Assembly: GCF_016863635.1 (NCBI RefSeq)
Contig: NZ_BOPG01000003.1
Span: 186,001 to 250,000 of the forward strand
Source of the DNA: Virgisporangium aurantiacum
Lineage (GTDB): Bacteria; Actinomycetota; Actinomycetes; Mycobacteriales; Micromonosporaceae
Reading direction: 5' to 3'
DNA length: 64,000 nucleotides
In this document: positions 18,299 to 30,732 of the stretch, piece by piece
How the letters are laid out: every line of letters starts with the position of its first letter
How positions within the stretch are numbered: position 1 is the stretch's first letter
Notes under the pieces: generated by a model
Told to the model about the DNA's origin: nothing
What the model saw: only the letters and a program-made list of their open reading frames with translations
Databases searched by the model: none
Position numbers and translations under genes: made by a program

Positions 18299-19054
18299 GT
18301 GACCAAGATCCTCCAGTTCGAGCGTGGCGAGGCCCCCCTCGGCGACGACGACCTACTGGCCGCGTACGCCACCGACCCCGGCGCGCCGTGGCTGCGGGTC
18401 AACTTCGTCACGAGTCTCGATGGCGCGGTAACGGCCACCGACGGGTTCTCCGCGGGCATTTCCGACGAAGCCGACAAGCGCGTCTTCGGCCTCCTCCGCA
18501 TGACCTGCGACGCCCTGATGGTGGGCGCCGGCACGCTGCGCCACGAGGGCTACGGCGCGATGCGGCTGGGCGAGCGCCGCGAGGACTGGCGGGTCGCGCA
18601 CGGCCTTCCCGAGAACCCGCTCCTGATCATCGTGTCGAGGCGGCTGGACCTCGACCCCGCGTCGCCGATGTTCACCGACGCACCGGTCCGCCCGTTGATC
18701 GTCACCTCCAGCGCCGCACCGGTGGACCGCCGCCAGGCCCTGTCGGAGGTCGCCCACGTCCTGGCCATGGGTGACGACGAGGTGGACCTCCCGGGCGCGC
18801 TGGAAGCGATCCACGCGCTGGGCTTCCCCCAGATCCTCTGCGAAGGCGGCCCCCACCTCCTCGGCTCCCTGACCGCAAACGACCTGGTAGACGAGCTCGA
18901 CCTGACGCTGTCCCCCCTCCTGATAGGCCCCGGCCCCGGCCGAATCACCGCCGGCCAGGCCCCGGAGTCCCCCCGCTCCCTGCAGCTCCACCACATCCTG
19001 ACGGCCGGCAACCTCCTCCTCCTGAGATACACCCGCCCCCCTGCTCCCAGTTGA
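18299..19054 (+). CDS. Pyrimidine reductase family protein (RibD C-terminal domain)
   Basis: RibD C-terminal/dihydrofolate-reductase-like fold, about 251 residues. Motifs are LRVNFVTSLDGAVTATDG (near 38), DALMVGAGTLRHEGYG (near 72) and ILCEGGPHLLGSL (near 177), matching NADPH-dependent 5-amino-6-ribosylamino-uracil reductases. There is no deaminase domain, so this is a stand-alone reductase, often called a pyrimidine reductase family protein. Whether it serves riboflavin synthesis is uncertain. The GTG start at 18299 is chosen because homologous sequence begins near LQFERGEAPL; no ribosome binding site is visible and an in-frame start further left (18224) cannot be excluded. The stop TGA lies at the left arm of the palindromic repeat at 19053. 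Confidence 0.82.
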   Translation: MTKILQFERGEAPLGDDDLLAAYATDPGAPWLRVNFVTSLDGAVTATDGFSAGISDEADKRVFGLLRMTCDALMVGAGTLRHEGYGAMRLGERREDWRVAHGLPENPLLIIVSRRLDLDPASPMFTDAPVRPLIVTSSAAPVDRRQALSEVAHVLAMGDDEVDLPGALEAIHALGFPQILCEGGPHLLGSLTANDLVDELDLTLSPLLIGPGPGRITAGQAPESPRSLQLHHILTAGNLLLLRYTRPPAPS

Positions 19055-19122
19055 TCTTGCAGTTGTGGTGCCAGGCTCACCCGTGTTTGTCCGGGTTTGT
19101 GGGGCACCACAACTGCAAGATC
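19053..19122. repeat. Palindromic dispersed repeat, copy 1
   Basis: Perfect 20-base inverted arms gatcttgcagttgtggtgcc (19053-19072) and its reverse complement (19103-19122) around a 30-base loop. A second copy at 26494-26563 has identical arms and a loop of the same length but diverged sequence. The left arm covers the last two bases of the RibD-like stop codon. As RNA this would form a 20-bp hairpin and could end transcription, or it may be a REP- or MITE-like element. The pair brackets the herA-to-glycosylase operon. Confidence 0.9.
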
Positions 19123-19190
19123 GACGCGTATGGGGGTGGCGGCAGGGCGTGGTGACGTCGGCTACCCGGCGCATTGGGGCAGGATGCTAT

Positions 19191-19206
19191 GCGAACGTAC
19201 GTGCGA
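19191..19206. promoter_or_regulatory. Possible LexA (SOS) box before herA
   Basis: CGAAC-gtac-GTGCG resembles the actinobacterial SOS box CGAAC-N4-GTTCG, with one core mismatch. It lies 18 bases upstream of the herA GTG, before a DNA repair operon, a position where LexA would block transcription. One imperfect palindrome found by eye is modest evidence. Confidence 0.35.
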
Positions 19207-19223: not shown

Positions 19224-20978
19224 GTGGACCCTGAGACCGCCGGCAGCCCGGTCGGCCGGGTGCTGGGCACCTCCGACGCCACGCCGCTGCAGTTCTGGGT
19301 GGCCGTCGCCAGCGGTGCCTACCTCCAGCTCGACGACGTCGTGGTCACCAGCCGCGAGCTCCCCGACGGGTCCAGCGTGAGCATCGCCGGCGTGGTCACC
19401 GCTGTGCGGGCCCGACACGAGGGCGCCGCCTTCGACTCCGACGTGTTCGCGATCGCCGACGGCACGCTGCCCGCCCAGGTGCAGGAGGCGGCCGAGATCA
19501 CCACCACCCGGGTCACCCCCGAGGTCTACGTGCCGCCGCAGCCGGGCGCGATCGTCCACCGCGCCAAGGGTGAAGCCCGCGCACAGGCGCTCTACTTCGA
19601 CCGCATGGACCGCCAGGTGCCGATCGGCTTCGGCCGCGACGGCGAGCCGCTGTTCCTCAACGCCGACTTCATCGACGGCCAGCGAGGCGCGCACGTCTCC
19701 ATTTCCGGAATCTCGGGTGTGGCCACGAAGACCAGCTTCGCCACGTTCCTGATGTACTCGATGCTGCGGAGCGGCGTGCTCGGCGGCGCCGGCGAGAGCG
19801 CCAACACGAAGGCGCTGATCTTCAACGTCAAGGGCGAGGACCTGCTGTTCCTCGACCACCCCAACACCAGGCTCGACGATGCCACCCGGGAGAGCTACGC
19901 CCGCCTCGGCCTGCCCGCCGGCCCGTTCCCCGACGTCCGGGTCTACGCGCCGCCGCGGGCCGGCGGTGCCGACGCCACGCCCGACACGAACGCGAGAATG
20001 ACCGGCGTCGACCCGTTCTACTGGACGCTCGCCGAGTTCTGCGCCGACGGCCTGCTCCCCTACGTCTTCGCCGACGCCGACGACGAGCGGCAGCAGTACA
20101 CGATGGTGGTCCACTCGGTCGCCGCGCACCTCAAGAAGGTCGCCGCACCCGCCGAGGGCGCCATCACGCTCGAGGGCACCCGCATCGCCAGCTACGAGCA
20201 CCTGGTCGACCACCTGGTCGAGCAGCTCGGCGACGAGGCCACCCGGTTCGCCTGGACCGGCACCGCCGTCGGCCTGGGCACGGTGAACGCGTTCGCCCGG
20301 CGACTGATCAACAGCAAGCGCGACCTGTCCCGGCTGATCCGCGGCGACCTCGCCCAGCGGCGGCCGCACTCGATCAACACGGCCGAGAGCGCCCAGCTCA
20401 CGGTCGTCGACTTGCACAACCTGCCCGACCGGGCGCAGCGGTTCGTCGTCGGCGTCACGCTGAAGACGGAGTTCGAGCGCAAGGAGAAGTCGGGCACCGC
20501 GAAGCCGCTGCTGTTCGTGGTGCTCGACGAGCTGAACAAGTACGCGCCGCGCGAGGGCTCGTCGCCGATCAAGGACGTGCTCCTCGACATCGCCGAACGC
20601 GGAAGATCACTCGGCGTCGTCCTCATCGGCTGCCAGCAGACGGCCAGCGAGGTCGAGCGGCGCATCGTCACCAACGCCGCGATCAAGGTCGTCGGCCGGC
20701 TCGACCCGAGCGAGGCCAGCCGCACCGAGTACGGCTTCCTGCCGCCGGCACAGCGCCAGCGCGCGCTGATCGCCAAGCCCGGCACGATGTTCCTCAGCCA
20801 GCCCGACATCCCGGTGCCGCTCTGCATCGAGTTCCCGTTCCCCGGCTGGGCGACCCGGCCGGGCGAGGCGGGCGAGCCACCGGTCAGCGCGTTGCGCTCG
20901 ATCGTTCAGACGAAGGACCCGTTCGCCGTGGTCGGCGCCTCGGTCGGCGGCCTGTCCGACGACGACATCCCGTTCTAG
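19224..20978 (+). CDS. herA: HerA-like ATPase / DNA translocase
   Basis: HerA/FtsK-superfamily ATPase (DUF87 type), 584 residues. In archaea and Deinococcus, HerA is a hexameric DNA translocase that works with the nuclease NurA and Mre11-Rad50 in DNA end resection. The N-terminal HAS-type barrel starts at VGRVLGTSDATPLQFWV. The P-loop is unusual, SGISGVATKTSFAT (near 177), lacking the canonical GKT/S. The Walker B strand is LLFVVLDELNKYAP (near 432), followed by a sensor-like VVLIGCQQTASE. The GTG at 19224 is fixed by AGGAGG six bases upstream. First gene of a tight herA-sbcD-sbcC-nurA-glycosylase operon, with sbcD 12 bases downstream. Confidence 0.88.
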   Translation: MDPETAGSPVGRVLGTSDATPLQFWVAVASGAYLQLDDVVVTSRELPDGSSVSIAGVVTAVRARHEGAAFDSDVFAIADGTLPAQVQEAAEITTTRVTPEVYVPPQPGAIVHRAKGEARAQALYFDRMDRQVPIGFGRDGEPLFLNADFIDGQRGAHVSISGISGVATKTSFATFLMYSMLRSGVLGGAGESANTKALIFNVKGEDLLFLDHPNTRLDDATRESYARLGLPAGPFPDVRVYAPPRAGGADATPDTNARMTGVDPFYWTLAEFCADGLLPYVFADADDERQQYTMVVHSVAAHLKKVAAPAEGAITLEGTRIASYEHLVDHLVEQLGDEATRFAWTGTAVGLGTVNAFARRLINSKRDLSRLIRGDLAQRRPHSINTAESAQLTVVDLHNLPDRAQRFVVGVTLKTEFERKEKSGTAKPLLFVVLDELNKYAPREGSSPIKDVLLDIAERGRSLGVVLIGCQQTASEVERRIVTNAAIKVVGRLDPSEASRTEYGFLPPAQRQRALIAKPGTMFLSQPDIPVPLCIEFPFPGWATRPGEAGEPPVSALRSIVQTKDPFAVVGASVGGLSDDDIPF

Positions 20979-20990
20979 AGAGGGCCCAGC

Positions 20991-22136
20991 GTGCGACTGC
21001 TGCACACGTCCGACTGGCACGTCGGGAAGGTGCTCAAGGGCCAGTCCCGGCTCGACGAGCAGATCAAGGCGCTCGGCCAGGTCGTCGAGGTAGCCCACAA
21101 GGAGCGGCCCGACCTGGTGATCGTCGCCGGCGACCTGTACGACACGGCCAGCCCGACGGCCGACGCCACCAAGGTCGTCACCCGGGCCCTGAGCGCGCTC
21201 AAGGCAACCGGCGCCGACGTGGTCGCGATCGGCGGCAACCACGACAACGGGCCCGCCCTCGACGCGCTGCGGCCGTGGGCCGAGGCCGCCGGCATCACCC
21301 TGCGCGGCGCGGTCAGCGCGAGACAGAGCGACCACATCGTCGCGGGAACCACCGAGGGCGGGGAGGAGTGGCGGCTGGTCGCGTTGCCGTTCCTCTCGCA
21401 GCGGTTCGCGGTGCGGGCGTCCGAGATGTTCGACCTCACCGACGCCGAGGCCACCCAGACGTACGCCGATCACATCGCGCGCCTCCTCGAGAGCCTGACA
21501 AGAACCGCGTTCGGCACCGACACCATCAACCTGATCACCACCCACCTCACCGTGCTGGGCGCCACCCAGGGCGGCGGCGAGCGGGAGGCGCACACGATCA
21601 TGGGCTACGCGGTCCCGGTCAGCGTGTTCCCGCAGAAGGCGCACTTCGTGGCGCTCGGCCACCTGCACCGCGCGCAGACCGTCCCCGGGCCGAGCGTGGT
21701 GCACTACTCCGGCAGCCCGCTCGCGATCGACTTCGGCGAGACCGAGAACATGCCCGGGGTGTCGATCGTCGACGTCACGAAGAACACCGCGGCCAAGGTC
21801 CGCACGGTGGAGATCACCGCCGCCACCCGCCTGCGCACCATCCGCGGCACGATCGCCGACCTGGAGAAGTTCCCCGACGACGGCTCGTGGCTGCGCGTCT
21901 TCGTCCGGGAACAGCCCCGGGCCGGCCTGCGCGAGGAGGTGCAGGCCATGCTGCCGAACGCGCTGGAGGTCCGGATCGACCCGGCGATGCTCCCCGAGAC
22001 CACCACCGACCGGCCCACCGGAACCCGGGCCGGCCGCTCGCCGCGGGACCTGTTCACCGAGTACCTGAACAGCCGGGGCCACGTCGACGACGCCACCCTG
22101 GACCTGTTCGGCACGCTCTACGAGGAGGTGGGCTGA
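20991..22136 (+). CDS. sbcD: SbcD/Mre11-type exonuclease subunit
   Basis: Metallophosphoesterase nuclease, 381 residues, the catalytic partner of SbcC. All core motifs are visible: LLHTSDWHVGKV (DxH), AGDLYDTASPT (GDxxD), GGNHDNG (GNHD), ITTHLTVLG and ALGHLHRAQ (GHxH), with metal ligands intact. With SbcC it would process hairpins and double-strand ends. GTG start with AGAGAGGG upstream. Its stop overlaps the sbcC ATG by one base (TGATG), so the subunits are coupled in translation. Confidence 0.96.
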   Translation: MRLLHTSDWHVGKVLKGQSRLDEQIKALGQVVEVAHKERPDLVIVAGDLYDTASPTADATKVVTRALSALKATGADVVAIGGNHDNGPALDALRPWAEAAGITLRGAVSARQSDHIVAGTTEGGEEWRLVALPFLSQRFAVRASEMFDLTDAEATQTYADHIARLLESLTRTAFGTDTINLITTHLTVLGATQGGGEREAHTIMGYAVPVSVFPQKAHFVALGHLHRAQTVPGPSVVHYSGSPLAIDFGETENMPGVSIVDVTKNTAAKVRTVEITAATRLRTIRGTIADLEKFPDDGSWLRVFVREQPRAGLREEVQAMLPNALEVRIDPAMLPETTTDRPTGTRAGRSPRDLFTEYLNSRGHVDDATLDLFGTLYEEVG

Positions 22137-24619
22137 TGCGACCGCTGCGGCTCGACCTCGCCGGGTTCACCGTCTTCCGCGAGCCCACCACCGTCGACTT
22201 CACCGACACCGACTTCTTCGCGCTGGTCGGCCCGACCGGCGCCGGCAAGTCCACCGTGCTCGACGCGATCTGCTTCGCGCTCTACGGCACCGTGCCCCGG
22301 TGGGGCAACCGGACGTCGATCGGCAACGCGCTCGCGCCCAGCGTCACCGAGGGCCGGGTACGGCTGGTGTTCGAGACGGCCGGCGCCCGGTACGTGCTCA
22401 CCCGCGTGATCCGGCGCGACGGCAAGGGCGCGGTGACCACCCGCCAGGCCGGCATGGAGGCGCTGCCGCACGGCTTCGACCTGAGCCGGTTCGACGACGA
22501 CGGCGGGACGCTCGACGGCGAGCTCGGCGAGGTCCTGGCCGGCACCCCCGGCGAGGTCGACCAGGCGGTCGCCGACGTCGTCGGCCTGCCGTACGAGCAG
22601 TTCACCAAGTGCGTCGTGCTGCCGCAGGGCGAGTTCGCCGCGTTCCTGCACGCCAAGCCGGCCGACCGGCAGAAGATCCTGGTCAACCTGCTGGGCCTGG
22701 AGATCTACGGCCGGGTGCGGGAGAAGGCCGGCGGGGTCGCCGCCGAGGCCGACCTCAAGCTGAAGGCCGTCGACGGCCTGCTCGCCGGGTACGCCGACGC
22801 CACCGACGAGACCAGAAGGATTTCCGTAGCCAGGGTCGAGGAAACGCGTCATCTCGCAGTTGAAATTGATCTGGCCTTGCCGCAACTCGCCGCCGCGACG
22901 CAACAAGCGGCCAACGCCCGCGACTCGTTGAGCGCGCTCGATGCCGAGATCTCGCGGTTGGCCGCGGTGCACAAGCCGCCGGCCGCCGACGGCCTGACCC
23001 GGACGGCGCTCGATGCCCGCGCGGCGGCGGCCGAGGCCGCGACGGCGGTGACCCAGGCCGAGGAGCACGAGGAGAAGCTCCGCGCCGAACTGACGGCCGC
23101 CGGTGACCCCGCCGCCCAACGGCGCTGGCTCGACGCCCATGCCGAGCGGGCCAAGGTGGAGCGCGAGGCGAAGGCGCTGGAGAAGCAGCTCGCGTCGGCC
23201 GCTCAGGAGCATGCGACGGCGGAGGCGGCCGTGGCCGCGGCGCGGGCGGATGCCACCGCGGCCCAGCAGGCGCTCGACGACGCCCGCGAGGCCTACCAGA
23301 CCGCGCTGGCCCTCGACCGGGCCGGCGAGTTGCGCCCCCACCTGAAGCTCGGCGAGCCGTGCCCGGTGTGCGAGCAGAAGGTCGCCGCACTGCCATCGAG
23401 CGGCCAGGGGCACGCGGCCGAAAGCGCGAAGGCGGCGGGTGTCGTGGCCCGGAAACAGGCCGACACGGCGGCCGCTGTCGTCGAGACGCGCGCCACCGCG
23501 CTGCGCGACCTCGACCGCGCCGTGGCCGCCGGCCGGGCGCAGGCCGAGGCGTCGGCCCGTCGGATGTCCACATTGGACAGTCAGCTCGCCGGTGCGCCCG
23601 ACCCCGCGACCCTGAAGCGCTCCCTGGCCGAGCTCGACGCCAAGCGCAAGGCCTGCGACGACGCCACCGCCGCCGTGCGCAAGGCGCGCACGGCGGCACG
23701 GGCCGCGGCGGCCGCGGCGGAGACGTCCGAGGCGGCGGTCCGGGCCGCGTGGCGGGAATTCGATGTGACGCGGGATGCGCTCGCTCCGTTCGGCCCACCC
23801 CCGGCCGACCGGGAGGACCTCGCGGGTACCTGGACGGCGTTGGCATCGTGGGCGTCCGAGCAGGCCGGCACCCGGCGCGACGCGCGCGACACCGCCGCGG
23901 CCGCCGTCTCCGGTGCCGACGCGGCTGTCGCGACGGCGCGGGCCGCCCTGGTCGCGCTGTTCGAGAACGCCGCGGTGCCGGTGCCGGTCGGCGACTACGC
24001 GCGGGCCGCGGCGGTCGCCGTGGAACGCGCCGAGGCGGCGCAGCGGCGGATCGAGGAGCGCATCGCCGAGGCGTCCAGGCTCCGCGACGACCGCGCGACC
24101 CACGAGCGCACCGCCCAGGTGGCCCGGACCCTGGCCACCCACCTGCGGGCCGACCGGTTCGAACGGTGGCTGCTCGCCGAGGCCCTCGACGCCCTGGTGG
24201 CGGGCGCCTCCCGCATCCTGCGCGAGTTGAGCGGCGGCCAGTACGACCTGGTGCACCAGCGGGGCGAGTTCTTCGTCGTCGACCACCACGACGCCGGGTT
24301 GCGGCGGGCGGTGCGCACGTTGTCGGGCGGCGAGACGTTCCAGGCGTCGCTCGCGCTGGCCCTGGCGCTGTCCGAGCAGCTCGCCGGCATGTCGGCGGGC
24401 ACGGCGTCGCTGGAGTCGATCGTCCTCGACGAGGGCTTCGGCACGCTCGACGCCGCCACCCTCGACACGGTGGCGGCCACGCTGGAGAACCTCGCGGCGC
24501 GCGGCGACCGGATGGTGGGCGTGGTGACGCACGTGCGGGCGCTCGCCGAGCGGATCCCGGTACGGTTCGAGGTCACTCGGGACGCGCGGACGGCGCGCGT
24601 GGAACGGACGGCGCTGTGA
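22136..24619 (+). CDS. sbcC: SbcC/Rad50-type ATPase subunit
   Basis: SMC-like ATPase of 827 residues, short for SbcC because the coiled coils are reduced. The N-terminal Walker A is VGPTGAGKST (near 32), and the Q-loop/lid region contains CVVLPQGEFAAFLHA. Ala/Glu/Arg-rich coiled coils flank a zinc hook CPVC (near 408, in LGEPCPVCEQK). The ABC signature is TLSGGETFQASLALALAL and the Walker B is IVLDEGFGTLD near the C-terminus. Around 22810-22880 the first coiled coil has locally less GC-biased codons, with no frame break. The ATG shares a base with the sbcD stop, and the nurA GTG overlaps its own stop. Confidence 0.95.
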   Translation: MRPLRLDLAGFTVFREPTTVDFTDTDFFALVGPTGAGKSTVLDAICFALYGTVPRWGNRTSIGNALAPSVTEGRVRLVFETAGARYVLTRVIRRDGKGAVTTRQAGMEALPHGFDLSRFDDDGGTLDGELGEVLAGTPGEVDQAVADVVGLPYEQFTKCVVLPQGEFAAFLHAKPADRQKILVNLLGLEIYGRVREKAGGVAAEADLKLKAVDGLLAGYADATDETRRISVARVEETRHLAVEIDLALPQLAAATQQAANARDSLSALDAEISRLAAVHKPPAADGLTRTALDARAAAAEAATAVTQAEEHEEKLRAELTAAGDPAAQRRWLDAHAERAKVEREAKALEKQLASAAQEHATAEAAVAAARADATAAQQALDDAREAYQTALALDRAGELRPHLKLGEPCPVCEQKVAALPSSGQGHAAESAKAAGVVARKQADTAAAVVETRATALRDLDRAVAAGRAQAEASARRMSTLDSQLAGAPDPATLKRSLAELDAKRKACDDATAAVRKARTAARAAAAAAETSEAAVRAAWREFDVTRDALAPFGPPPADREDLAGTWTALASWASEQAGTRRDARDTAAAAVSGADAAVATARAALVALFENAAVPVPVGDYARAAAVAVERAEAAQRRIEERIAEASRLRDDRATHERTAQVARTLATHLRADRFERWLLAEALDALVAGASRILRELSGGQYDLVHQRGEFFVVDHHDAGLRRAVRTLSGGETFQASLALALALSEQLAGMSAGTASLESIVLDEGFGTLDAATLDTVAATLENLAARGDRMVGVVTHVRALAERIPVRFEVTRDARTARVERTAL

Positions 24620-25587
24620 AGCTCTTCGTGGAGGCGTGGGACCCGACGTACGGCGCCGCGGTCGAGAGCCCCGACTTCGCGGGCGGCGGCGGCACACCGT
24701 CCGAGGCCCGGCTGGAGCTCGACGTCGAGCGCTCCGCCGAGGCGTGGGAGCCGATCTCGCCGCCGCCCGACGTCCGGGCGCCCGACGTGGCCCTGCTGGT
24801 CGACGGCGTCCGCCGCACCGACGCCCGGGTGTGGGTCGGCGACGAGAACACGGTCCTGCCCGGGCTGGCCGCGTCGTACGCCGCCGGGGTGGTGCGGTGC
24901 GACCTCCGGCGGGCCGTCGCCGAGGTGGTCACCGCCCGGGTGCAGCGCGGGGTGTTCACGCCGTTCACCAACGGCGCGCCGGCGCTGGTCACCTCCGCCG
25001 GCCGGTATCCGGTGCTGCCGGCGAAGAGCGGCGACCTGATGGCGATGTCGTCGGCGGTGCAGCAGCACCTCCAGGCGCTGGAGTCGTCGGTGCTGGCCGA
25101 GTCCCGCGACGAGTCGACGGCCGACGAACTGCTGGTCGCCGACGGCCCGCTGCGCGGGCGGGCCGGGATCTCGCGCATGCTCGGCTACATCAAGAGCCAC
25201 GAGAAGCGGTACCTGAACGGCCATCAGTCTTCTGTGGTCATGGCGTTGAAGGCCGGCCAGCGCAGCCCGGTGTTCAAGCTCGGCACCCGGTGGGAGCAGT
25301 ACACCTGGTACCTGCGCCTGCCCGGCCCGGGCGGCGCGCCGTGGAGCAACCTGGCCCGCATCGAGTGCTCGGTGGAACTGCCGGCGCAGGCCGCGATCGC
25401 GCTGGCCGACCTGTCGATGGTGACGCTGCCGCGCTTCGCCGCCACCTCGTACAAGGACCCCCGCGCGCCGCAGAACCTGGTGCCGATCGCGGGGCTGGAG
25501 CGCCGCCTGCGCACCATGCTCGGTGACGGGCGGCTGCTGCACCGGGCGCTGACGCTCGCCGCCCACCGGGAGCCCGCGGGTGTCTGA
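24616..25587 (+). CDS. nurA: NurA-like nuclease
   Basis: A protein of 323 residues with NurA-domain features. There is an early motif-I-type strand with aspartate and glycine (ALLVDGVRRTDARVW, near 58), a central LLVADGPLRGR (near 173) and a downstream lysine-bearing segment (LGYIKSHEKRYL, near 192), then RWEQYTWYLRL and a helical C-terminus. NurA is a 5'-3' exonuclease/endonuclease that works inside the HerA complex. Position in one operon with herA, sbcD and sbcC strongly supports the call. GTG start overlapping the sbcC stop as GTGA. Sequence similarity to archaeal NurA is low by eye, so the assignment rests on motif order plus context. Confidence 0.78.
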   Translation: MKLFVEAWDPTYGAAVESPDFAGGGGTPSEARLELDVERSAEAWEPISPPPDVRAPDVALLVDGVRRTDARVWVGDENTVLPGLAASYAAGVVRCDLRRAVAEVVTARVQRGVFTPFTNGAPALVTSAGRYPVLPAKSGDLMAMSSAVQQHLQALESSVLAESRDESTADELLVADGPLRGRAGISRMLGYIKSHEKRYLNGHQSSVVMALKAGQRSPVFKLGTRWEQYTWYLRLPGPGGAPWSNLARIECSVELPAQAAIALADLSMVTLPRFAATSYKDPRAPQNLVPIAGLERRLRTMLGDGRLLHRALTLAAHREPAGV

Positions 25588-26479
25588 CCGTTCGTTCGCG
25601 GTTCCGGATCGCTACGACCTCGCCCGGTCGATGCGCCACCTGGCCGTGATCCCGAACGACCCGACGCTGGTGGTGAGTGACCGCGAGGCCTGGTGGGCCA
25701 CGCGGACGCCCGACGGGCCGGGTTCGCTGCATCTTCGGGTGTCCGGCGCCTCTTTGTCGGCTTTCGCCTACGGACCGGGCGCGTCGTGGCTGCTGTCGCG
25801 CGCCGACGCGATCGCCGGCCTGCACGACGACGTGAGCGGGCTCGCCGCGTTCGACCACCCGCTCGTGCGCCGGCTGGCGCGCACGTTCGCCGGGGTGCGG
25901 ATCCCGGCCACGGGACGGCTGTTCCACCACACGGTGGCCGCAATCCTCGGCCAGAAGGTGACCGGCGGGGAGGCGTCCCGCGGCTACCGCGGCCTGCTGC
26001 GACACTTCAAGGCGCCCGTCCCCGGTCCGGCACCGCCCCGCCTGATGCTGTCGCCCGACCCGGCCGACGTCGCGGCCACGCCGTACTGGCAGTTCCACCC
26101 GTGGGGCATCGAACAGAAGCGCGCCGACACCGTACGGCGGGCCGCCGCGTTCGCCGTCCGCCTGGAGAAGGCCACCGACCCGGCCCTGGCCACCCGCCTG
26201 CTGACCTCGGTGCCCGGCATCGGCGCGTGGACGGCCGCCGAGGTGGTACGGGTCGCCTTCAGCGACGGCGACGCCGTGAGCGTCGGCGACTACCACCACA
26301 AGAACGTGGTCGCCTGGGCGCTGGCCGGCGAGCCCCGCGGCACCGACGAACGCATGCTCGAACTGCTCGAACCCTTCCGCGGCCACCGCGGCCGCGTGGT
26401 AACCCTGCTACAACTGGCCGGCCACTCCGCCCCAAAATTCGGCCCGAGGATGCCCATCCGCTCCTTCGCCCGCTTCTAA
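25580..26479 (+). CDS. HhH-GPD superfamily DNA glycosylase (AlkA-like)
   Basis: A protein of 299 residues. The C-terminal helix-hairpin-helix reads LTSVPGIGAWTAAEVVRVAF (near 212), followed by the catalytic aspartate in VSVGDYHHKNV (near 236). This is the arrangement of DNA-3-methyladenine glycosylase II enzymes, which remove alkylated bases. The N-terminal half has an AlkA-like leader region. No C-terminal Fe-S cysteine loop, so it is not a Nth/MutY type. The GTG overlaps the nurA end by 8 bases, making it the last gene of the repair operon. The second palindromic repeat follows 14 bases after its stop. Confidence 0.87.
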   Translation: MSDRSFAVPDRYDLARSMRHLAVIPNDPTLVVSDREAWWATRTPDGPGSLHLRVSGASLSAFAYGPGASWLLSRADAIAGLHDDVSGLAAFDHPLVRRLARTFAGVRIPATGRLFHHTVAAILGQKVTGGEASRGYRGLLRHFKAPVPGPAPPRLMLSPDPADVAATPYWQFHPWGIEQKRADTVRRAAAFAVRLEKATDPALATRLLTSVPGIGAWTAAEVVRVAFSDGDAVSVGDYHHKNVVAWALAGEPRGTDERMLELLEPFRGHRGRVVTLLQLAGHSAPKFGPRMPIRSFARF

Positions 26480-26493
26480 CCCCCCTCCCCGTT

Positions 26494-26563
26494 GATCTTG
26501 CAGTTGTGGTGCCGGGTTCAGTGGGTTTTATCCCCGTTTGAGAGGCACCACAACTGCAAGATC
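26494..26563. repeat. Palindromic dispersed repeat, copy 2
   Basis: Same 20-base arms as the element at 19053-19122 (26494-26513 and 26544-26563) around a 30-base loop that agrees with copy 1 at roughly 18 of 30 positions. It lies between the convergent 3' ends of the glycosylase and DUF2637 genes, a position where a bidirectional terminator would be expected. Confidence 0.9.
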
Positions 26564-26592
26564 GACTGGCTGGGTGGGGTCAGGGGGCGGGG

Positions 26593-27465
26593 TCAGGCGG
26601 ACAGGACGCGGCGGAGACGTTGGGTGGAGATGCCGAGTTGCTTGGCGAGGTCGTCCGTGGTGGCGTCGGGTTGCCTCGCGGCCAGCTCGGCCGCCAGGCG
26701 ACGGGTCTCCTCGACGGGGCGGCCCCGGCGCGCGGGGGCGGCCTGCGCGGGGATGCGGGCACCGGTGGGCACGCGGGCGCTGGCGGTCGCCCGGGCGGTG
26801 GCGGGTGACGTGGTGGTGCGTTGACGCGGACGCACGGCGGCCAGCCGTTCACCGAAGTGCTCGCCCAGGTGCTCCCGGAGGTTCTCGCGGAGGTTCTCGC
26901 TCAGGACCGGCGACCCGGGCTCCGGCTGGAGCAGCGGCTTGGTCTCGACGAGTTCGGACCCACCGGAGGTGGGGACCTCGGCCATGGCCGAGGTGATCGT
27001 GGTGACGCCGTTCCCGGGCAGCGGGGTCGCTTCCGGGACGGGCGCAACGCGTCCCATATTGTCCTTTTCCTGCATGGCCCGCAGCCGCCCCGCGAGCTCG
27101 ACCAGCGACACGCTCGCGACCACCACCAGGCCGTCGACGCTCAGCGGCAGCAGGTACGGGGCGGCGCCGGTCTCGCCATAGCGGGCGGCGACGCCGGCCA
27201 TGTGCCAGTAGGAGACCCAGGCGGCGATGCCCGCGATCGTGGCCGTGGCGCCCAGGCGCACGGCGGCGAGCGAGCGCCGGTAGACCGGGACCCGCGAGAT
27301 CAACTCGACCGTGAGCAGCAGCGCCAGCGGCGGCCAGGCGGCGATGGCCTGCGCGATCGGGTTCTGGTTGGCGTGCAGGATGTTCGCCGCGACACTCGCG
27401 GCCACTCCGAGCGTGAGGACGGCGCGAACCGCCCACCTGACGCGTCGTAACTGGCGAAGTGACAC
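26593..27465 (-). CDS. DUF2637 domain-containing membrane protein with C-terminal helix-turn-helix
   Basis: A protein of 290 residues. Four hydrophobic segments are visible in the first 125 residues (AVLTLGVAASVAANIL, WPPLALLLTVELIS, LGATATIAGIAAWVSYW, LSVDGLVVVASVSLVEL), as in DUF2637/SpdD-like proteins. A charged, low-complexity linker follows. The last 45 residues look like a helix-turn-helix (ETRRLAAELAARQP; DDLAKQLGISTQRLRRVL). Such proteins are often found in actinobacterial plasmids and integrative elements, but no integrase, replication or transfer gene is near. GTG start with GAGGAG upstream. Function unknown. Confidence 0.82.
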   Translation of the reverse strand: MSLRQLRRVRWAVRAVLTLGVAASVAANILHANQNPIAQAIAAWPPLALLLTVELISRVPVYRRSLAAVRLGATATIAGIAAWVSYWHMAGVAARYGETGAAPYLLPLSVDGLVVVASVSLVELAGRLRAMQEKDNMGRVAPVPEATPLPGNGVTTITSAMAEVPTSGGSELVETKPLLQPEPGSPVLSENLRENLREHLGEHFGERLAAVRPRQRTTTSPATARATASARVPTGARIPAQAAPARRGRPVEETRRLAAELAARQPDATTDDLAKQLGISTQRLRRVLSA

Positions 27466-29572: not shown

Positions 29573-29600
29573 CCTCAGGCCGTTTTAACGCGGCCTTAGG
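29573..29600 (-). terminator. Hairpin terminator after the DNA ligase gene
   Basis: Read on the minus strand, CCTAAGGCCG and CGGCCTGAGG form a 10-base stem with one mismatch around an 8-base loop. The stop codon of the ligase gene lies inside the stem. No clear U-tract follows. Confidence 0.6.
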
Positions 29601-30732
29601 CTGTTCCGTCGAGGACCGAGTCCACGTCGATCCGTGACGGGCGTTCCAACTGGTCGTAGGTGCACGAGCGGGGCTCGCGGTCGGGACGCCAGCGCTTGAA
29701 CTGGGCGGTGTGGCGGAACCGGTCCCCCTCCATGGCGTCGTAGCCGACCTCGATCACCAGCTCGGGGCGCAGCGGGACCCAGCTCAGGTCCTTCTTGCCG
29801 GTCCAGCGGCTGACGCCGCCGGGCAGCCGCTGGGCCGTTCCGACCGGGTCCGGTACCTCCTCGCCGGGCTTGAGGGGGTCGAACGCGGCGCCGACCGGTG
29901 CGTGACCCCACTGCCACGGGTGCGTCTCGGCGGCGTTCTCCCGGTACGGCGCGAGCTCCTCGACCAGTTCCTTGCGGCGCTCCATCGGGAAGCTCGCGGA
30001 GACGCCGACGTGGTGCAGGTTCCCCTCGTCGTCGAAGAGGCCGAGCAGCAGCGACCCGATGATCGGCCCGGACTTGTGCCACCGGAAGCCGGCCACCACC
30101 GCGTCGGCGGTGCGGGAGTGCTTGATCTTGAACATGAGCCGCTTGCCGGGCTCGTACGCGATGTCGGCCGGTTTGGCGATGATGCCGTCGAGGCCGGCGC
30201 CCTCGAACAGCTCGAACCAGTGCTTGCCCACCTCGGGATCGGTGCTCACCGGGGTGACGTGGACCGGGGGTCGCACGTGTCGCATGGCCTCTTCGAGCTT
30301 CGCGCGCCGTTCCTTGAAAGGGGTCTCCATCAGGTTCTCGTCGTTCAGCGCCAGCAGGTCGAACGCGATGAAACTGGCCGGGGTCTTCTCCGCCAGCATG
30401 TTCACGCGGCTGGCGGCCGGGTGGATGCGCTGGCCGAGCAGTTCGAAGTCCAGCTTGGGCTGCTGACCCTCCTCGCGGCGGATCACCACGATCTCGCCGT
30501 CTGTCACTGATCTTTCCGGTAGTTGAGCTCTTGCCTGCTCGACCACCTCGGGGAAGTAGCGCGTGAGCGTCTTGCCGCCCCGGCTGGCCAGTTCCACCTC
30601 GTCGCCGTCGCGGAAGACGATGCAGCGGAACCCGTCCCACTTCGGCTCGTACGACATACCGTCAGCGGTGGGGATCTTGGCGACGCTCTTCGCGAGCATC
30701 GGTTCCACCGGCGGCGCGATAGGTAGCTTCAC
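29596..30732 (-). CDS. ligC: ATP-dependent DNA ligase (LigC type)
   Basis: ATP-dependent ligase of 378 residues. The AMP-accepting lysine is in EPKWDGFRC (near 30), with motif III-like FIAFDLLAL, motif IV GIIAKP, motif V FKIKHSRTADAVV and an OB-fold C-terminus (IGSLLLGLFDD). Length and the lack of extra domains fit mycobacterial LigC rather than LigB or multi-domain LigD. It would seal nicks, possibly as a backup in end joining or base repair. GTG start with GAGGATGG upstream; the HD hydrolase gene ends 10 bases before it, so both form an operon. Confidence 0.9.
   Translation of the reverse strand: MKLPIAPPVEPMLAKSVAKIPTADGMSYEPKWDGFRCIVFRDGDEVELASRGGKTLTRYFPEVVEQARAQLPERSVTDGEIVVIRREEGQQPKLDFELLGQRIHPAASRVNMLAEKTPASFIAFDLLALNDENLMETPFKERRAKLEEAMRHVRPPVHVTPVSTDPEVGKHWFELFEGAGLDGIIAKPADIAYEPGKRLMFKIKHSRTADAVVAGFRWHKSGPIIGSLLLGLFDDEGNLHHVGVSASFPMERRKELVEELAPYRENAAETHPWQWGHAPVGAAFDPLKPGEEVPDPVGTAQRLPGGVSRWTGKKDLSWVPLRPELVIEVGYDAMEGDRFRHTAQFKRWRPDREPRSCTYDQLERPSRIDVDSVLDGTA

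Follow-up and report, generated by a model that had tools for sequence, protein, structure and literature searches.

We analysed a window of 64,000 nucleotides (nt) from the actinobacterium Virgisporangium aurantiacum (contig NZ_BOPG01000003.1, positions 186,001 to 250,000 of the forward strand), whose genome measures 14.1 Mb. The window means this whole stretch, and the positions given below are counted from its first letter. The genus belongs to the Micromonosporaceae, and the nearest named relatives by NurA identity are Virgisporangium ochraceum (92%) and V. aliadipatigenens (70%). Between positions 19224 and 26479 the window holds five open frames, all on the plus strand, which encode the predicted end-resection proteins HerA, Mre11, Rad50 and NurA and, last in the row, a predicted DNA glycosylase. 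Translation of the frames gives spacings of 12, -1, -4 and -8 nt, in agreement with the co-directional layout described in an initial annotation made from the sequence alone. The locus comprises the following features (TM, template modelling score):

19224..20978, plus strand: herA, Deinococcus-type translocase (predicted function), matching chain 7f6d_B at 1.3e-152
20991..22136, plus strand: mre11 (sbcD), with 164.6 bits to TIGR00619 and 49.4 bits to PF00149, both above cut-off
22136..24619, plus strand: rad50 (sbcC), matching SbcC/Rad50 models, with the motifs GPTGAGKST, CPVC and LSGGE read in the sequence
24616..25587, plus strand: nurA, resection nuclease (predicted function), with TM 0.70 to Deinococcus radiodurans NurA and conserved residues
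25580..25587, plus strand: 8-nt overlap GTGTCTGA between the stop of nurA and the predicted start of the glycosylase, from reading of the sequence
25580..26479, plus strand: AlkA-like HhH-GPD DNA glycosylase (predicted monofunctional), from its fold model and a D237 invariant in 30 sequences

The five gene identities that the initial annotation had proposed were borne out by homology, predicted folds and key residues. The product of herA matches the HerA chain of the D. radiodurans complex in two stretches spanning residues 8-550, the next-best chains in the PDB scoring 0.026 or weaker. Its K169/T170, D206 and D435/E436 align (positions counted by hand) with K175/T176, D220 and D487/E488, residues of the D. 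radiodurans protein named in excerpts of PMC9960219. The homology thus spans most of the protein and takes in its Walker A and B residues. No Pfam family was listed for this protein, and the NCBIfam HerA models NF040819 and NF040937, one of which bears a Thermoproteota name, were matched at 12.2 of 970 and 10.2 of 800 bits, short of their cut-offs.

For NurA, the family search suggested by the initial annotation fell short and the structural match held: the protein scores 16.0 bits against PF09376, below the gathering score of 21 (a threshold of the model and no trait of the protein), and its predicted model, with a mean predicted local distance difference test (pLDDT) of 91, superimposes on D. 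radiodurans NurA in the 7f6d complex with the TM value listed above. A phmmer comparison with the same protein gave 2e-19. Excerpts of PMC9960219 describe D53, K201 and R309 of D. radiodurans NurA as required, with W8 close by; a chain offset of 20 suits all three required residues, which become D63, K193 and R283 here. These three are invariant among 43 aligned sequences, in which W8 is at least 90% conserved, and on predicted fold and catalytic residues we identify the protein as a NurA. One TGA was flagged within the nurA match of each of four relatives (G010, G015, G031 and G035).

Both HerA and NurA belong to the Deinococcus type, sharing with the D. radiodurans HerA-NurA system (7f6d; PMC9960219) one HerA family, the predicted NurA fold and the conserved NurA residues. 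The arrangement differs from that of D. radiodurans in two respects: herA is separated from nurA by mre11 and rad50, and a glycosylase gene follows. In archaea the same four functions are grouped, as described in excerpts of PMC2288612, so that the term archaeal-style, used in the initial annotation, suits the gene set; it does not suit the type of HerA and NurA, the HerA here lying far under the NCBIfam HerA models.

The two middle genes encode an SbcCD, or Mre11-Rad50, pair. The phosphoesterase clears the TIGR00619 SbcD cut-off of 77.65 bits by a wide margin, and the ATPase carries the zinc-hook motif CPVC and matches SbcC/Rad50 models, reaching 257.8 of the 478.5 bits demanded by TIGR00618 (SbcC).

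The glycosylase scores 18.1 bits against the HhH-GPD family PF00730 (cut-off 26.2), and its predicted model, with a pLDDT of 92.6, resembles E. coli AlkA at a TM of 0.76. D237, invariant in the 30 aligned sequences, meets AlkA D238, which we take to be the catalytic Asp, if the alignment, ending at residue 232, is extended without gaps. The hairpin carries Trp rather than Lys, presumably the mark of a monofunctional enzyme. By predicted fold, hairpin and catalytic Asp the protein is an AlkA-like HhH-GPD glycosylase, and we predict that it excises alkylated bases. We call it AlkA-like and not AlkA because it lies far under the cut-off of the AlkA equivalog NF007641 (DNA-3-methyladenine glycosylase 2), with 31 of 229 bits.

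The predicted start of the glycosylase overlaps the nurA stop, which makes the translational coupling proposed in the initial annotation likely. When the glycosylase frame is read backwards from its conserved part, which lies 22 nt past the end of nurA, the GTG in GTGTCTGA is the sole start met before a stop is reached 38 nt inside nurA. The ATG at 25631 chosen by a simple gene caller was rejected because conserved residues would be lost. Across genomes the overlapping start takes the form ATGA, GTGA or GTGTCTGA. Since the genes lie head to tail and start and stop overlap, two repair jobs are likely switched on together. Our preferred reading, to which we give a probability of about one half, is that the five genes form one DNA-damage-responsive operon in which the glycosylase would excise alkylated bases and the other four would resect ends; we infer start codons, co-transcription, induction and enzyme activities from sequence. 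The arrangement is not chance, because the four-gene set recurs across the phylum and the overlap recurs in eight genomes including that of the window.

To the initial annotation, the HerA-NurA-Mre11-Rad50 set was known in bacteria mainly from Deinococcus-like organisms. The set is not restricted to them, because 55 of 246 genomes sampled across the phylum Actinomycetota carry a Deinococcus-type HerA (E-value of 1e-40 or better); a draw from the class gave 16 of 246, the source genome being counted in both. In the Micromonosporaceae, HerA and mre11 were each found in all 37 genomes of our sample, which includes the source genome and whose members, being relatives, are not independent samples; among 24 other genomes of the order, HerA was found at full strength in three. 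Fifty-two loci came from outside the order, nurA being in view in 45 of them, and the gene orders there are herA-mre11-rad50-nurA or nurA-herA-mre11-rad50. A scan of named genomes with NurA alone gave three loci. The glycosylase profile was matched above 60 bits at none of the 55 herA loci outside the family (the 52 from outside the order and three from within it), a negative that covers the sequence fetched for each locus, some of these loci terminating at contig ends.

Upstream of herA, a k-mer scan of 36 regions found the element GTGxGGCAxGATG to be common, and in many regions a TTGTCGTAC-like box stands beside it, which we take to resemble the RecA-NDp motif of PafBC. The role of PafBC at RecA-NDp promoters is described in excerpts of PMC8223512, PMC6789036 and PMC11804915. 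Because circularity was to be avoided, we trained a promoter matrix on 18 recA promoters of the family and set its levels on a background of 10,250 random windows from the family's own loci. Excluding G004, whose 5' end lies outside its contig, 21 of 36 herA promoters exceed the 95% level, 11 the 99% level and four the 99.9% level. At the 99% level the other genes gave 3/36 (mre11), 0/35 (rad50), 1/34 (nurA), 0/27 (glycosylase) and 0/14 (ligC). Control genes with intergenic upstream regions passed 95% in 14 and 99% in five of 143 cases, and two of these five are a reductase gene running into herA (G013) and a gene just before mre11 (G027). When spacers of 5 to 11 nt were tried, the count peaked at 8 (12/36 over the 99% level of that run), the others giving 0 or 1 except for 6 at spacer 11.

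The same signal extends beyond the family. At the 52 loci from other orders and classes (L134-L185), judged by the unchanged family levels, the operon's first gene passes 99% in 20 and 99.9% in 10, whichever gene leads. Seven genomes have mre11 more than 100 bp away from herA, and in four of them (G006, G014, G036 and, outside the family, G048) it is preceded by a strong site of its own, which is lacking in G009, G027 and G057. PafC was present in all 23 family genomes searched. The likeness to the mycobacterial PafBC/RecA-NDp regulon consists of a -26 box, an 8-nt spacer and a -10 element, found before the family's recA and before the operon of many relatives. The four genes together resemble an inducible machine for end resection in the Actinomycetota. 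HerA and NurA are unnamed in the excerpts of the PafBC literature, including those of PMC8223512, and neither a HerA-NurA operon with a glycosylase nor its control by PafBC was found among the titles and abstract openings listed by searches of open-access literature. A table of the Myxococcus damage-response proteome, in an excerpt of PMC12288472, includes a HerA-like helicase.

Before herA in the window itself we could place two elements:

19180..19185, plus strand: -10-like CAGGAT, at the place where the PafBC-type motifs of relatives have their -10, with no -26 box ahead
19191..19206, plus strand: LexA-like box GCGAACGTACGTGCGA, agreeing at 10 of 12 positions with what we take to be the LexA consensus and kept in three Virgisporangium genomes

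We rejected control by LexA at the level of the whole family, herA upstream regions showing no enrichment outside the genus, and the LexA-like box is for that reason reported at genus level only.

To follow the glycosylase gene through the family, we located genes by six-frame profile matches above 60 bits, because the simple gene caller had mis-called several loci. The gene is present in 30 of the 37 genomes; a genome was counted as lacking it if it had no match, or only one with an E-value of 2.9e-8 or weaker, fitting the Ada-AlkA kind. The overlap with nurA recurs in eight of the 30 (G000, G001, G002, G004, G007, G014, G023 and G024), that is, in the source genome (G000) and seven of 29 relatives. 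The overlapping start is the sole candidate within 60 nt that spares the conserved part in G000, G004, G014 and G023; a later start would also spare it in G001, G002, G007 and G024. Two genomes have the gene after nurA with a gap (G018, G028), and one has a single gene in between (G031). In twelve the gene lies on the same strand 3.8 to 10.5 kb downstream of nurA; elsewhere it is next door and convergent (G008), nearby on the other strand (G020, G021) or unlinked to nurA (G025), and contig ends hide its position in three (G026, G029, G034). The comparison across the Micromonosporaceae that the initial annotation proposed thus finds the gene directly behind nurA in ten genomes, eight with overlap and two with a gap, while in the other 20 carriers it is not in tandem or its position is hidden. 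Close relatives do not lack the gene: all three genomes of the genus that were searched have the overlap. In many genomes the block between nurA and the displaced glycosylase holds genes for a spermidine-synthase-like protein, an extracytoplasmic function (ECF) sigma factor, a zinc-finger anti-sigma-like protein, a secreted-repeat lipoprotein and a DUF4142 protein.

On a tree built from HerA, Mre11 and Rad50 (the Mre11 of G003 was omitted as over-long, and G044 is absent), the 30 glycosylase genomes form one clade with support 98/97, the seven genomes without the gene fall outside, and presence of the gene takes one change. Adjacency among genomes of known state takes four changes; counted by hand, an adjacent ancestor needs four (including a regain in G004), or five if only losses are allowed, and a separated ancestor six. 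The first branch of the 30 is an overlap genome, G014, and the overlap occurs in three later lineages as well. As the tree requires a single origin, at the root of these 30 genomes, the contact of nurA and glycosylase looks ancestral and later broken. A late origin of the overlap by deletion of intervening genes was set aside in view of the adjacent lineages at the base of the tree.

The surroundings of the operon differ between its two ends. Downstream of the glycosylase, none of the 45 pairs of ten adjacent genomes shares a homologous open reading frame (ORF) inside 2 kb (G004 and G007 offered 1.5 and 0.9 kb only), and gene order there therefore turns over while the nurA contact persists. 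Upstream of herA, 15 of 21 pairs of the seven adjacent genomes with enough sequence share one.

Several observations weigh against the one-operon reading, or against parts of it. Seven of the 37 family genomes have herA and mre11 but no glycosylase gene, and in 17 of the 30 that have it the gene is not in tandem behind nurA; contact is restricted to one clade of one family, which weakens the interpretation given in the initial annotation. No damage motif lies within 400 bp of the non-adjacent glycosylase copies (0/19, the 17 displaced ones with G026 and G029; G034, whose start is missing, was left out). Since the gene, where displaced, does without its own damage motif, the link between glycosylase and operon seems dispensable. 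At the promoter, 25 of 36 family herA genes fall under the 99% level, and the window's own herA promoter, unlike those of the PafBC regulon, is without a PafBC-type -26 box, its matrix score of -2.2 comparing with a background median of -2.6. The two mismatches of the LexA-like box leave a score that 173 of 9300 background windows (1.9%) reach or exceed (at least 10), and beyond the genus such a box ahead of herA is not enriched in the family (3/31). In D. radiodurans, deletion of herA-nurA gave about 10-fold higher resistance to UV and mitomycin. The conserved block ends at the glycosylase yet includes a metabolic gene:

18299..19054, plus strand: gene for a RibD_C-type pyrimidine reductase, ahead of herA and retained there in many relatives

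As this gene is equally conserved in place, position alone is no proof of a shared task. Divergent from the reductase gene lies a plasmid pRiA4b ORF-3-like gene (PF07929; 17670-18215), which recurs there in relatives.

These points can also be accommodated if the glycosylase is an old, order-wide gene that landed once behind nurA and works in ordinary base excision with no tie to resection, which we consider possible though somewhat doubtful. The overlap would then maintain itself, because breaking it would silence the downstream gene. In keeping with such a history, in the 17 family genomes where the gene has moved away it acquired no damage motif, and the metabolic gene ahead of herA is conserved in place just as well. 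In four annotated loci of other families of the order (L095, L096, L097 and L100) the glycosylase stands between F420 and sugar-nucleotide genes, with no herA. It adjoins CofD and F420-ligase genes in all four, and a mannose-type nucleotidyltransferase gene lies on its other side in L095, L097 and L100. What speaks against a mere passenger is that the overlap persists in four lineages although everything downstream has changed, and that ligC, likewise a repair gene, is found no more than 15 kb away in 21 of the 30 genomes.

In the window this gene lies beyond the operon:

29596..30699, minus strand: ligC-type ATP-dependent DNA ligase gene (NF006078, 526 bits, cut-off 296)

The glycosylase and LigC might be a base-excision pair, LigC sealing the gap after excision, with the resection operon a mere neighbour; we judge this improbable. 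Their proximity within 15 kb (distances worked out by hand) is a feature of the family, none of 20 glycosylase-bearing genomes from the order's other families showing it, although 12 of those 20 have the genes on different contigs, where links may hide. The two genes lie within 1 kb on the same strand in eight genomes, and they remain within 15 kb in G020, G021 and G025, where nurA is on the opposite strand or distant. Excerpts of PMC5663958 report that LigC of mycobacteria binds glycosylases and that base excision can be reconstituted with it in vitro. Against the pairing, ligC in the window lies 3.1 kb off on the opposite strand, and the partner in the eight overlap genomes is nurA; only G028, in which herA, mre11, rad50, nurA, glycosylase and ligC form a single same-strand row, has both as direct neighbours of the glycosylase. 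The source genome has a second LigC-type ligase gene, on contig C11.

It is very improbable that the glycosylase belongs physically to the HerA-NurA machine, clearing lesions that stall the translocating ring: one coupled message would give the equal dosage that suits a complex, but D. radiodurans HerA-NurA resects in vitro without a glycosylase (excerpts of PMC9960219), and seven family genomes do without the gene. An anti-phage function, suggested by the remote similarity of HerA and Rad50 to PADLOC models (mad8 and mad3 among them), was set aside as next to negligible, since NurA and the glycosylase match no PADLOC model at E-values up to 1 and herA and mre11 are present in all 37 family genomes, unlike a mobile defence island.

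Two further features border the operon. A palindromic repeat of about 76 bp flanks it on both sides (19050-19125 and 26491-26566); we rejected these repeats as part of the operon, the palindrome arm matching 120 times in the genome (58 forward and 62 reverse, with up to two mismatches). A DUF2637 protein with a weak helix-turn-helix match is encoded next to the operon (26593-27405); a search of 2 kb in each of the other nine adjacent genomes turned up no relative.

Elsewhere the source genome encodes an AdnAB-like adjacent pair of UvrD and PD-(D/E)XK proteins (contig C6), a second SbcCD-like pair (contig C124) and an Ada-AlkA fusion, its domains being Ada and AlkA_N (contig C50). It therefore looks as if the operon provides an additional set for resection, together with a second glycosylase for alkylation damage, which would supplement and not replace those systems.

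Under the one-operon reading, we propose that DNA damage would raise expression of the operon. Closely spaced alkylated bases would be turned into abasic sites and then into breaks, which HerA-NurA with Mre11-Rad50 would convert into 3' tails for RecA. The glycosylase would be co-expressed with the resection complex without being a subunit of it, having become, in one clade, a coupled fifth gene and so come under operon control. In this view alkylation repair and end processing would be functionally linked, as the initial annotation had suggested. A wider version, which we offer tentatively and regard as rather unlikely, is that HerA-Mre11-Rad50-NurA is a core member of the PafBC regulon across the Actinomycetota and that the Micromonosporaceae captured a coupled glycosylase, so that excision and resection would rise together and breaks from clustered alkylation would be resected by the same machine. 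The mechanism is the same idea as a crenarchaeal proposal: excerpts of PMC11754123, a paper on an HhH-GPD protein, propose that breaks arising when both strands undergo excision are repaired by homologous recombination and name mre11, rad50, herA and nurA, with no gene linkage.

HerA-NurA resection has been studied in archaea and Deinococcus, and here it looks like a common extra set of the Actinomycetota, standing beside AdnAB and SbcCD and driven by a promoter predicted to respond to damage. If base excision is truly wired to resection, clustered alkylation damage would be a natural substrate joining two pathways that are usually studied apart. The Micromonosporaceae make many DNA-damaging compounds, and this family would be a place in which to test the link between excision and resection.

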